Part shown: piece by piece, positions 8,789-15,337 of the stretch
How the letters are laid out: the number at the start of each line of letters is the position of its first letter
Numbering within the stretch: the first letter of the stretch is position 1
Assembly (NCBI GenBank): GCA_039545315.1
Contig: BCIM01000004.1
Coordinates: forward strand, 1,089,872-1,153,871
DNA: 64,000 nucleotides
Reading direction: 5' to 3'
Source: Kondoa malvinella
Lineage: Eukaryota > Basidiomycota > Agaricostilbomycetes > Agaricostilbales > Kondoaceae
Notes under the pieces: model-generated
The model's database searches: none
The model's input: the letters and a program-made list of their open reading frames with translations, nothing else
What the model was told of the DNA's origin: nothing
Translations under genes and position numbers: made by a program

Positions 8789-10499
8789 ATGCCTACTTTC
8801 GCTGAATGGATTCCGAATCTGGTCACACAAGAGCAGAGACTAGACCCAACCTTCCCGCCGACTTCCAACAAGACAGCCCCTTTCACCAATGTCAGTCTAT
8901 TGCATCAAGCTCACTTGCGGCCAGCCGGCGTCGGACAAGACCACAATATCCCAAACCGTCTCATGTCCTACCTTCACAAACTATGCAAGGAAGACTCCAA
9001 CATGCTTGAAGAAGTCACAGACGACGCAACGGTGGCCTACAAGAACTCGCACAAGGTCTTACGCGCTCAGATGCAGACGCGGGAAAGCTCGGTCGATGAT
9101 GTGGTGAGGCCACAAGTCGAGCTTTGCCTCGACATCACGCACGCCCTCCGACCAGCTGCCGAACATTGGGTAGTCAAGTCACAGGAAAGTGGGAGCTCAT
9201 CTCTGGGGATTATACCAGATATAGTCATACTTGATGGCATCCACGACCTCAAACTGTTGGTAGAAGATAAGACTAGCCTTGTTTTGAGCACGCATCAGCA
9301 CGCTCTCTCCAACATGCATGTGCGCTTCGACTGGACCAAGGACAACAGCAAGCTTTTTAGGGAAAGTGGCGCGTATTCGATACTGATCAAGCTCGTCTGC
9401 TTGATGCTTGATCAGAAGCTTCCCTTCGCCTTTTTGACGGACGCCAAGCAATACTGCATTTTACAAGCACACACATCTGCAAATGGCAGTCATACCATCT
9501 TCCTCACCGAATTTATCTCTGTCGCAGATCAGCAATACCCTTTACCCCAGGTCCTCCTCTCCACAATATTAGCGGCTGATCTACTGAGTGGAAGTCTACC
9601 TTTCGAGCTGCAGATTCCAGCAAGTCTCGTCGAATCGAGCACGCAGTGGGCTATCGCAGATCCGGTAATGACGAATCGCACCGTCTTCGCTTCTACTTCC
9701 CAATCGAATAGCCAATCGCTAGCCAACCACTCTGACAACCAACAGAACGATCAGCAGCCGCAGGACAGAGGCAGGTGGAGAACAGCAACGAATGATTCTG
9801 GAATACTGTTTGCAGACGTTCGTGCTTCGTCTAGCTTAGCTTGCCTCAAGCTGATAGCGCCTAACAGATGCTCTCGTTGAGTTTCAGACCTGTCGATGAA
9901 TACCAACCTCCCGATCGTTACCTCTTACATCCACGCTGCCCGGATGATCTACAGCACCGTACCTGGACTCAGCTCGTTATTGGCGAAAGACTAAACACTT
10001 CATTATACGCGAGTGCATTCTTGGCTGATTTGGATGGAGTCAGAGTGGTCGCAAAAGTCGCTAATGCAGGGTATCAAGGCGGGGACATGCTGGAAGCAGA
10101 AGCGAGGATCTACTCTGATCTCAAAGAGCTGTTTGATACGGCTGTACCTAGGTGTTATGGAATTTTTGAGGGTGATGGGCTGTCGGTTCTGGTTACGGAA
10201 TATGCTGGCCGTCCATTGGGCAAGTGGAAGGAGCTTTCTTACGAGTATGCGTGAGTGACCAGCAGCTAGGTGCAGGTGTTCATACTCATGAATTTGACAG
10301 CCAGCAAGTCTGCAAGCATCTGCAAGCGATACACGCTCACTGTATTCTTCATGGCGACGTGGAACCTAGAAACGTAGTGATCGATTCCGCTACTTGCCAG
10401 ATTAAGATTCTTGATTTCTCTCATTCAATCAAGGTGTCCTGCGCAGAAGATGGCTTAGACGAGCTTGATCAGCTCAAGTTGGAGTTGGGTGTAGCTTGA
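8789..10499 (+). CDS. FunK1-like protein kinase homologue
   Basis: Three exons: 8789-9817, 9868-10250 and 10301-10499, with phases that agree. The product is about 536 residues. The first 340 residues have no motif I know; they include a segment (VELCLDITHALRPAAEHWVV...PDIVILDG) reminiscent of the N-terminal region of basidiomycete FunK1-type kinases. The kinase-like part follows: VVAKVA (VAIK-like lysine), a conserved Glu in LEAEARIYSDL, the hinge VLVTEYAGRPL, the catalytic-loop-like HGDVEPRNVV and IKILDFSHS in place of DFG. The chain ends about 25 residues later, so the C-lobe is mostly missing, which is common in this family. Activity is doubtful or directed at small molecules; substrate unknown. 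Confidence 0.7.
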
Positions 10500-10827: not shown

Positions 10828-13800
10828 CTATACGTACAGCCAATCACCCTGCGTCTCTGCCCATCCTTGCAGCTCAGCGCCAGTAGAATGCACGAATCGC
10901 ATGCGATCTGGCACGACCTGAACTTCACTTCCTCCTTCTGCTGCCTCCCGCTGAGATGAAGCAGGAGCGCCGAGATGAACACCAAAGCCTGATCCTCCGA
11001 CGAGAGTTTCATAACAGGTGAAACCAGCAAATATGAGTTCGCGCTTGAGATCCGCGAGTTTGGAGGGTGAAAAGCCTAAAGAAGAGTTAGCTAAATCAAG
11101 CAGAGCTCTTGGCAAACTGACCATCGGGAATGAGTGTCACAGCACATCCTCCACCTCCAGCGCCAGTGAGCTTCGTCTTCAGGTTATACGGCGCAGCAGC
11201 GGTTTTGACTCTGATAGTCTCGAGCGAAGGATGCGAAACTTGCAGGGTGTCGAGATGTGCGCTGTTCTCCTCTATCAATGCCTGTATATATATGTCAGTA
11301 CTGTGTCATTTGGCATAAGCTCAAGCGCACCTCTAGAGTGGCGACCTGCTTCTGCCTCGGCATGTCGGTATCAAGCAAACATCGCTTGGCCTCATCCGAA
11401 ATAGACTGTATCGCATCCAGTACGCCTTGAACCATTTCAGGCTGCTCATCCTTCAGTTTTTGCACGCCCGCTACCAGCGTCTTTGTATTTCGAGGCATCT
11501 TGGTATCGGTCAACAAGAACTTGAGGCTCTTGAATCCATGCAAGCCTTCCATCTTTGCGTTTCCTCCGGGCGTGAGCGCTCGCTGGAATGATAATGCTCC
11601 ACCGTGACTGGCTACTGAGTTATCTACACCCGAAGGTTTGCCATGGATAATTTTCTCGGCTAAGAACGCCCAAGAATTGACGGCATCTGCTTGTGCAAAA
11701 GGCAGAGCTTTTCGGCCTGCCTGGTCGGCTGAGAGAGGTTTGGAAGGAAGAGCGATGCGTTGATGGGTGTAAAGAATGGATGAGGCAACACAGACGGAAT
11801 ATGCTGCCGATGAGCCAAGGCCAGCAGAAATAGGTAGTGCTGTCCGTATGGTAAAGCTTTGGCCGAGTCTGCTGTCACGATCAGCCAAAAATCAGAGTGG
11901 CATAGGGTTGCAACTGACTTTCTGCTGTGATCTGCGATCTTGATGTAGAGATAGAGGAAAGCTTGCACAGCATGCACCGCTCTGTGATCGAGACCGTGGA
12001 CGAAAGGCGCTAATCGATGTAGCAGGGCTTCATCGGGCTGATTTTCTGGTGTAGTGAATTCATGGTCGAGCGGCAGATCAGAAAGCTTCCAGTCATGCGA
12101 AAGTTCAAAGTCGGACAGGTGAAGGGTGAGGGTTTCGTCATGCCTTGCTTCTGTCAAACAATAGCAGCGCAGATCGACTGAGCCAGCTATTGCGGTCTAT
12201 CTAGGCATTAGACCAGACGGCTCTCGACAAACATCCAGGCTTACAACTCCATGCACAACAGCGTGCTCGCCAAAGAGAATGACTTTTCCTGGCGCAGACA
12301 CAAGCAGATTCTCGCTATTCGGTGAAAGGGAGGTACTAGCGAAAGCTGGAGAGAGTTGCTGAGCTTCTGAGCCAGTTCGCGAAGGTGTGCCATCTTCCGA
12401 AAGCGTGATGGCGCCTGCTTCGAGTAACGCAGCTTCGAGGTCGTCTAAGAGATCGTCCGTGTCTTCTATTCCAACGCAGAGACGGATGAGATCTTCTTGA
12501 AGTCCACGAGCAGCTCGAACAGCCGGGTCGATAGAAGCGTGCCTATTTATCATGCTGAGCTATGATCGAGTTTCGACCAGGCTCAGACGACGTACGACAT
12601 CAGACAAGGCATACTGATCAAACTGTTGACGCAACCAAAGCTGACACTAATACCCCACAACCTCGCCGCAGCCACGATCCGCTCGCTGAGTTGTTTATCA
12701 TCGGTAACGAAACTCAACACCGCTCCAGGTCCTCTTGCAAGCCGGTCATGAATGTCTTTGCCTGGATGTGATGCAAGACCTGGGAAGTGAACCTTGAAAC
12801 CGAGGGCATGAAGGTATTCTGCTACGCGGATCGCAGACCGTTGTTGCTGTTCGAGACGGAGAGCGAGAGTTTTGATGCCTCGTAGGAGTAGGAAGGAATC
12901 TACGGGTGCAAGACCATTGCCAATAGAGTTGATGGTGAACGCGATGCGCTGTAATTTCGTTAGCTAGCATCAACCGGTCTGTCATTCTTGCCCACCTTGG
13001 CGACATCTTCCCGATCACATACGACTACACCGGCCATCAAATCATGATGTCCACTGAGGTATTTCGTGCCAGAGTCGTATACAAGGTCTGCGCCATGTTC
13101 AAGCGGTCGTTGCAGGTATGGACTCATCATAGTATTATCGACTACGACTAAAGCTTCAGGTACATGTTGATGGACGAGATCTGAGATAGCAGCAAGGTCG
13201 GCAATCTGAAGAAGCGGGTTCGTAGGCGACTCTAGCAAGACCATGGCCACGCGAGAATCCGGTTTTGACAAATACGGCGCAAGGTTTTCTGATTTTGTAG
13301 TATCAATGTGATGTACGATGATGCCGTTGTGTTCTTTCAAGTAGGCCAGCAGTCGGTTTGAGCCTCCATAGAGATCATTTCCTTATCATTTTGATCGGTT
13401 TGCATGACTCGGGAATGGCTGATAAGCGAAGTCTGAGCTCACCAGCAATGACATGGTCACCCGGTTTCAACAGCCTAAAGATGACATCTAATGCGCCCAT
13501 ACCAGAAGAAACGGCGAAAGCATGCTGAGAGCCAGAGATCTTTGCGATATGATGCTCAAGAAAACTTCGAGTGGGGTTGCCGCTGCGAGTATAGTCATAC
13601 TGTCCGCCCATGCCTTTGAACGTGGCCGTTTGGTAGATGGGCACGCTGGAACTGCCCCATTGGTCCTGATGTTGCGGATCTGGATTCTCGACAGTCACTA
13701 CTTGAGTCGCTAATCTATACGCTCGGCTCGTTTTCCTCGAAGAGCCAACGGACGTCGCAGGGGTATCAGGTCGTGTGCTAGGGCTGTCTTGAGAGGTCAC

Positions 13801-13842
13801 TTGACTGGCTAGAGAAGCTATGGAGGTAGCCAAAGATTCCAT
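10828..13842 (-). CDS. Cystathionine beta-lyase fused to mevalonate kinase
   Basis: One gene encoding two enzymes. Eight traced exons: 13842-13443, 13381-12996, 12948-12596, 12542-12245, 12196-11919, 11871-11331, 11281-11122, 11075-10828. Introns are 46-61 nt, phases all agree, and the total is 887 residues. Residues about 1-425 are a PLP enzyme of the Cys/Met metabolism family: QYDYTRSGNPTR, the PLP-lysine motif SGTKYLSGHHDLMAG, and the C-terminal QEDLIRLCVGIEDTDDLLDDL. This fits cystathionine beta-lyase (Str3/MetC), which makes homocysteine. In the same exon, after a linker of about 33 residues, mevalonate kinase begins: LVSAPGKVILFGEHAVVHG, then ALPISAGLGSSAAYSV, KPSGVDNSV and LTGAGGGGCAV. 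All three GHMP motifs are present. The linker has no in-frame Met, so a separate kinase start is not available in this frame. The exact lyase specificity (beta versus gamma) is not proven. Confidence 0.88.
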
Positions 13843-14100: not shown

Positions 14101-15337
14101 TCACAACAAAGTCCTGGCCATCTCGACCAACTCCCTCTCAGCCTTGATAAATCTCGCCAGGGCATCAGCTTGCAATGACTTGACAGGCTCTTGGTCCAAA
14201 GCTTGCTCTAGACTTTCGTTCGTAGTCGTAGCTTCAGCCTTGATCAATGCCCGATCTCGAAGGTCTTTATAATGCTGATCGAACGGCGTCAAGGCCAACA
14301 CTTGCAGAGCTGCTGGTGAGAGGGTGACATGTGGGATACCGCAAAGTGACATGATTTCGTTTGCTGTTACCAAGCTACGGAAAAATTCTTATGAGCCAAA
14401 GACAACGTTGCCTTTTAGAAGACGGACCTCGCAGCTAGAACTTGGGTAGAGCTACCTTGCTTGTCGTAGACTGCTTGTATATTACGAGAAACTTGAATGC
14501 CCGGCATCTCGGTCAGCGCATCTGCGTAGATCTTGTGATCTGTCGGAACGAAATGGACAGCTATATAAACGTTCAGTCGAAAGTGGCTGACTAGAGAAAG
14601 AAAGACAGACAGAGTGGATTGACATAAGGAGCAACATAAAGACAACCAGCTTCAGCAGCCGCCAGACCTTGTTCAAGACAGAAACAAGTAGTAGCCAAGG
14701 TCCGAACACCATGATCTTTCTCAAGTACAGCACAAGCACCCAGTCCAGCTACAGTAGAAGGAATCTTGATGCACACTCGACTCTTAGGCAGACCGAAAGC
14801 TTCGTACAGTTTCGCGAGACGTAAAGCATGCGCGACCGTTGCATCGCGGTCATCAGCTTGACTTGGGTTTGCTTGAGCATGCAAGAAGCCTTTGGGTTCA
14901 AGGTGAGGCATGACCAGCATGCCTAGATGGACTGTCTGTTCTGGTGTCAGCCTATGACAGAGCAGCATGTCTCAAGTCTCACAGCGCAATCCACCACGAA
15001 AGCAGGCATCTCTTGATCTGATATATCAAAGCTCTTCTGCAGCTCTTTGGCTTTCTGTACGGCTTCTTTGAGCACACGGGCGTGAGCTGCTTTTTGTAGT
15101 TCGCCCAGGACAATGAGTTGGTTCGAGGTCATGTCGTTGAATGCTGCGATATACTGTCAGCCAGGCAGGTGTTTGGTATGCCCCTGAGCGTACGCTTGTG
15201 CTTCTGTGCGACTGAAGCTGGTATGAGCGAATTCGGAAGGCGCTATAAACTGAATCCGGCGCACTCGACGCATCGTTACAGTCAACGTCGAGCGACGTAT
15301 GCAGGCGGAACTCTTCTAGACAGGATCTTGTGCTCAT
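14101..15337 (-). CDS. Transaldolase-family protein
   Basis: Transaldolase moves a dihydroxyacetone unit between sugar phosphates in the non-oxidative pentose phosphate pathway, through a Schiff base on lysine. The spliced N-terminus reads TSLDVDS|FNDMTSNQLIVLGEL, using a GTAACG donor; this is the conserved transaldolase start of the barrel. Other motifs: KGFLHAQANPSQADD, the Schiff-base region VCIKIPSTVAGLGAC (Lys before IPST), and LEQGLAAAEAGCLYVAPYVNP. After further exons comes HKIYADALTEMPGIQVSRNIQ and a helical C-terminus. The sequence diverges from classic Tal1 in the active-site region (Tal1 has KIPSTWEG), so it may be one of the extra fungal transaldolase-like paralogues. Start ATG at 15337. 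Confidence 0.82.

Follow-up and report, generated by a model that had tools for sequence, protein, structure and literature searches.

Proteins in which a cystathionine beta-lyase (CBL) is joined to a mevalonate kinase (MVK) were described in 2012. The accessible text of the Ganoderma lucidum genome paper (PMC3342255, PLoS One 2012 e36146) names the fusion metC-MVK, reports it from 12 basidiomycetes with an average length of ~886 amino acids, gives it as the sole MVK homolog in the basidiomycetes analyzed, places its origin in the Basidiomycota ancestor, and describes an insert of 16 residues within the MVK portion in 7 species. According to the available portion of a rice-blast paper (PMC3468542, PLoS One 2012 e47392), STR3 orthologs of every basidiomycete examined, Postia placenta excepted, carry an MVK at the C-terminus, stand-alone MVK is absent from those Basidiomycota, and the ascomycete genes are apart and unclustered. 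Excerpts of two other papers report a fusion unigene (transcript) in Pleurocybella mycelium (PMC3720577) and repeat the fusion finding in the Lignosus genome (PMC4129116). No functional study of the fusion was found in the literature searched, which comprised titles and abstract openings and covered few subscription journals. Here, we analyze such a gene in Kondoa malvinella, located in a 64-kb stretch of contig BCIM01000004.1 (assembly GCA_039545315.1, positions 1,089,872 to 1,153,871), which is hereafter called the window.

We consider this gene, with a probability of about 0.93, to be the basidiomycete STR3-ERG12 (metC-MVK) fusion, an ancient and fixed gene for a predicted bifunctional enzyme. 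It encodes a eukaryotic-type CBL domain and an in-frame, full-length MVK, no other MVK was found in the genome, and both halves group with fused proteins in phylogenetic trees. The domain order is that of metC-MVK, and the length of 887 amino acids compares with the average of ~886 given in the accessible text on that family. A preliminary description, made from the DNA alone, had held that no such enzyme was described; what is available of both 2012 papers contradicts this. The fusion itself is already known, and K. malvinella adds one species and the detail of an exon shared by the two domains.

Gene Structure and the In-Frame Join

Splicing of the eight predicted exons (table 1) yields 2664 nt, that is, 887 codons plus a stop in an unbroken frame, in agreement with the coordinates, exon count, and length given in the preliminary description. 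The seven introns are 46–61 nt long (351 nt in total) and all have GT...AG ends. Starting exon 5 at 12200, with the intron-4 acceptor 4 nt earlier, was rejected as this breaks the frame; the start at 12196 keeps it, and the relative P0129 concurs.

Exon 4 contains both the C-terminal end of the lyase, RLCVGIEDTDDLLDDL, and the initial kinase (GHMP) motif, VSAPGKVILFGEHAVVHG, read in one open frame of the raw DNA, as had been proposed. The linker had also been described as free of Met, and indeed Met379 is followed by no other Met until residue 679, which is beyond the first kinase motifs.

The Lyase and Kinase Halves

A protein search with residues 420–887 scored 7996 candidates and gave 1103 matches, the best 120 of which were listed; searches with the lyase half and with the kinase half likewise gave the best 120 rows each. 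Residue counts refer to 118 aligned rows, namely 117 matches of at least 780 amino acids plus the K. malvinella protein (P0022, P0033, and P0097, all below 780 amino acids, were omitted). The positions tested are those which we take to be catalytic, the kinase ones coming from the mammalian enzyme.

The N-terminal half is a predicted CBL of the Str3/MetC type. It matches PF01053 over residues 56–419 (E-value = 1.9e-125), and its best solved relative is Arabidopsis CBL (1ibj). Like the stand-alone fungal CBLs (Str3, metG, and met-2), it satisfies the CBL model TIGR01329, with 529.5 bits against a curated cut-off of 487.5. Stand-alone nonbasidiomycete lyases among the matches listed are ~58–64% identical to this half (estimated by eye). 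In contrast to Str3-type lyases, the fusion bears a kinase, and fused rows branch separately in the lyase tree. Each of the seven lyase positions tested is retained by 116–118 of the 118 rows, the pyridoxal phosphate (PLP) lysine by 117.

The C-terminal half is a putative MVK of the Erg12 type. Both PF00288 (GHMP_N) and PF08544 (GHMP_C) exceed their cut-offs, and comparison with the stand-alone enzymes of rat (1kvk) and human (2r3v) gave values of 3.9e-71 and 3.3e-69, respectively. The 1kvk alignment covers residues 1–387 of the 432-residue half, which is nearly the entire kinase. Unlike stand-alone Erg12, the kinase of the fusion lacks its own start codon in the stretch from the lyase to the first kinase motif, and fused rows branch separately in the kinase tree. 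Seven of eight tested kinase positions are invariant in all 118 rows; the eighth is D in 76 and N in 42. The earlier claim that the catalytic motifs of both enzymes are intact is thus correct for the tested residues (116–118 of 118 rows), this D/N position aside.

We also searched the K. malvinella assembly (20 contigs, 19.1 Mb) in six frames. The MVK query matched one locus alone, the fusion gene. GHMP_N was detected at five loci: the fusion, ERG8 (C2), MVD (C3), a homoserine kinase (C3, TIGR00191 above cut-off), and a galactokinase-like exon (C1). Outside the fusion, weak TIGR00549 matches map within or next to ERG8, the galactokinase-like gene, and the homoserine kinase, and no second MVK was found in this search of the 20 contigs. 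The mevalonate pathway is present, and the fusion locus is its only MVK found.

Several further Cys/Met PLP loci were detected; one of these, on C8, is an O-acetylhomoserine sulfhydrylase-like gene with exon matches, none of them above the curated cut-off. Because of this gene, K. malvinella may have a second source of homocysteine and the lyase half might be dispensable, as would suit a protein with a catalytically dead half that acts solely as scaffold or regulator (e.g., a lyase that merely assembles the kinase). We consider a dead half quite unlikely, given that the PLP lysine is kept in 117 rows, the other six lyase residues in 116–118, and seven of eight kinase positions in all 118, and that the lyase half exceeds the curated TIGR01329 cut-off.

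Linker and Structural Model

Residues 425–460 of the K. malvinella protein contain 15 Ser, Thr, or Pro among 36, so the Ser/Thr/Pro-rich linker of the preliminary description stands for this species. It does not stand as a family trait and was rejected as such: across the 118 rows, the linker is richest in Ala, Glu, Leu, and Val. With one set of cut points, its length is 43–98 residues (median 52; 44 in K. malvinella). Peroxisomal targeting was rejected as the reason for the fusion, as none of the 118 rows has an end like peroxisomal targeting signal 1 (PTS1) or a start like PTS2 by simple patterns. A fusion-specific C-terminal motif was rejected as well: a near-C-terminal Trp is present in every fused row (118 of 118), yet 53 of 80 stand-alone rows have it too, which makes it a wider fungal trait. 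These 80 rows were sorted by length (380–450 amino acids) and included some fusion fragments, and Mortierella-type kinases are among the Trp bearers.

For P0001 from Meredithblackwellia (Microbotryomycetes), the relative with the best score, the AlphaFold model has a mean predicted local distance difference test score (pLDDT) of 77.4 and a predicted template modeling score (pTM) of 0.53, with a low-confidence linker stretch at 435–451. Its halves match MVK and the cystathionine lyase/synthase family in PDB; the structure alignment took 55 of the matches.

Transcript Clues

The relative P0129 (85% identity over 510 columns) crosses four predicted exon joints without intron residues; it is an imperfect witness, as both its ends diverge from the family sequence as if frame-shifted. 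Among ten hand-picked long fusions on contigs of 2.7–3.6 kb, eight leave <351 nt (the intron total in the window) beyond the frame. P0070, P0090, and P0114 leave at most 180 nt, P0070 being a 2736-nt frame on a 2831-nt contig. Such intron-free spanning frames, whose calling method is not stated, lend support, short of proof, to spliced fusion mRNAs in relatives.

These observations bear on whether the locus might instead yield two proteins, the lyase on its own and the kinase from an internal start codon, the join being a mere shared exon. Intron 3 (12543–12595) offers an ATG in frame with exon 4 (MINRHASIDP...), and Met375 and Met379 lie within the lyase C-terminus. However, the K. malvinella linker is Met-free and the next Met, at 679, is past the first kinase motifs; moreover, frames with both domains run unbroken on short contigs (P0070), P0129 spans four joints, and a fusion unigene from Pleurocybella appears in the available part of PMC3720577. 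A two-protein locus is thus very unlikely.

Distribution among Fungi

The preliminary description suggested searching for proteins with both Cys/Met PLP and GHMP domains, and these proved abundant: 119 of the best 120 of 1103 matches bear both (precomputed Pfam column, read by eye), which indicates that the join is not due to chance. The exception, P0022 (498 amino acids), begins in the lyase tail. Fused proteins come from three basidiomycete subphyla, Pucciniomycotina, Ustilaginomycotina, and (many) Agaricomycotina; host groups were recognized from names, including those of Agaricomycotina, except four lineages that were looked up. False gene fusions are frequent in annotation of compact fungal genomes, but an artifact of gene model or assembly merging two neighbors can be dismissed with near certainty here, as the join lies within one open exon of raw DNA and recurs in many genomes and in print.

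Short lyase entries of Vanrija (Tremellomycetes) and Austropuccinia (Pucciniales) continue into the linker or kinase. Among 22 lyase rows inspected, P0241, P0242, P0244, P0250, P0252, P0253, and P0297 continue past the linker as far as VVHGV, where an apparent intron follows at the intron-4 site of the window. If this is right, the joining exon and intron-4 position would be common to Pucciniomycotina and Agaricomycotina, judging by protein letters rather than DNA. Of the rest, P0251, P0254, P0255, and P0256 are uninformative, as they end short of the join or lack a kinase motif, and P0238 (Verticillium), P0314, and P0326 have plain lyase ends.

The best 120 rows of the kinase-half search include stand-alone kinases of Mucoromycota-type and arbuscular fungi, a chytrid, and animals; no named stand-alone basidiomycete kinase was recognized among them, and the four named basidiomycete rows (Fibroporia, Ceratobasidium, Candolleomyces, and Serendipita) also bear the lyase domain. 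We inspected 35 lyase-less rows (including P0022), which are mostly fragments cut inside the kinase or beginning in the lyase tail or linker; P0146 is ambiguous.

Outside Basidiomycota, Mortierella alpina has a stand-alone MVK (P0156, KVV02_006121) and a stand-alone CBL (P0269, KVV02_006124) whose locus tags differ by three and for which the same longest contig, 234308 bp, is given. Here is a hint that the genes are near each other in this species, perhaps before any fusion. In other Mortierellaceae compared by eye (e.g., Entomortierella parvispora and Linnemannia hyalina), the two entries list different longest contigs.

Phylogeny and Points against the Fusion Reading

Trees of each half were built from hand-picked sequences, comprising 31 fused rows (30 of the 117 long fusions plus K. 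malvinella) and 25 stand-alone rows each, by a quick method with Shimodaira–Hasegawa-like approximate likelihood ratio test (SH-aLRT) support, no bootstrap, and no fixed root. In both trees, a branch with an SH-aLRT of 100 separates the fused rows from the stand-alone ones, and one change between the fused and stand-alone states suffices on each, a pattern that fits a single fusion event. K. malvinella groups with Pucciniomycotina in both trees, adjoining Mixia in the lyase tree and being unresolved at the base of the group in the kinase tree. A single origin of the fusion, no later than the base of Basidiomycota, is most likely.

Several points weigh against one ancient, fixed, bifunctional enzyme. 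TIGR00549 remains below its cut-off when the kinase half is scored exon by exon; such a score can arise where introns split a gene. With a pTM of 0.53, the P0001 model leaves the relative placement of the two halves unfixed. An internal start ahead of the join is conceivable because the intron-3 ATG is in frame with exon 4. The linker region contains Met in 34 of the 118 rows (none in 84), and together with this ATG it means that a kinase-only product may be made in some species or conditions. At least six kinase-only rows, P0145, P0147, P0168, P0190, P0207, and P0234, resemble true stand-alone kinases, and the kinase-half search may have ranked stand-alone basidiomycete kinases lower than its best 120 rows. 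The two trees disagree in places (e.g., Bartheletia P0014). Finally, Laccaria bicolor lacks metC-MVK according to the accessible text of PMC3342255, and Postia placenta is the exception in that of PMC3468542. The latter is probably a gene-model matter, because a 909-amino-acid fused entry from Postia placenta (P0079) is now listed.

Feature Coordinates and Neighboring Genes

The coordinates of the gene and its neighbors are given in table 1. Neither Rfam, at gathering thresholds, nor a tRNA scan gave any match in the 64-kb window.

Table 1. Features of the K. malvinella fusion locus (positions in the window).
Feature	Position	Strand	Basis or remark
Fusion gene (CBL + MVK), 8 exons, 887 aa	10828..13842	minus	splice model and domain matches
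Exons 1–4	13842-13443, 13381-12996, 12948-12596, 12542-12245	minus	splice model
Exons 5–8	12196-11919, 11871-11331, 11281-11122, 11075-10828	minus	splice model
CBL domain, aa 56-419, exons 1–4	12425..13677	minus	PF01053, TIGR01329, 1ibj
Predicted PLP lysine K240	13064-13062	minus	Lys in 117/118 aligned rows
Joining exon 4: CBL C-terminus, linker, first MVK motif	12245..12542	minus	open frame in raw DNA; relatives' sequences through same join
Linker region, aa 420-460: last part of conserved lyase tail (LEAGAI) plus variable Ser/Thr/Pro-rich stretch	12302..12424	minus	
MVK domain, aa 461-887, exons 4–8	10831..12301	minus	PF00288, PF08544, 1kvk, 2r3v
Transaldolase-family open frame	14591-14971	minus	PF00923; upstream of fusion gene, same orientation
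Protein-kinase-like open frame	10176-10499	plus	PF00069, 32.0 bits vs cut-off 31.7; downstream of fusion gene

Proposed Function and Implications

In the proposed scheme, one mRNA would be translated into a single polypeptide of ~95 kDa, whose N-terminal half would fold as a PLP-dependent CBL converting cystathionine to homocysteine and whose C-terminal half would fold as a GHMP MVK converting mevalonate to 5-phosphomevalonate, the halves being tied by a short flexible linker. The lyase family forms tetramers and the kinase family dimers, from which the oligomeric form of the fusion is presumed. The fusion would have become fixed once no separate MVK remained, for which reason the kinase half is presumably essential. 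Substrate channeling between the halves is unlikely, because the two reactions share no metabolite.

The persistence of the fusion is most simply explained by co-dosage or as a frozen accident in which the kinase half is essential. Regulatory coupling of the methionine and sterol pathways is a bold account, and co-regulation, shared location, and convenience, as offered in the preliminary description, are guesses. It is unlikely that the fusion has been kept across the phylum through physical coupling of sulfur and isoprenoid supply. If this were true, the kinase would be mounted on the lyase oligomer and the state of one half (e.g., cystathionine or isoprenoid feedback) would tune the other, so that methionine and S-adenosylmethionine would be matched to sterol methylation and prenylation.

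The fusion is ordinary for a basidiomycete and a handy molecular marker of Basidiomycota. It also calls for caution in genetics: deleting the "methionine" gene in such fungi would also delete the only MVK, and lethality or sterol effects would therefore be open to misreading. The persistence across a phylum of two joined enzymes without a common metabolite is a testable question.
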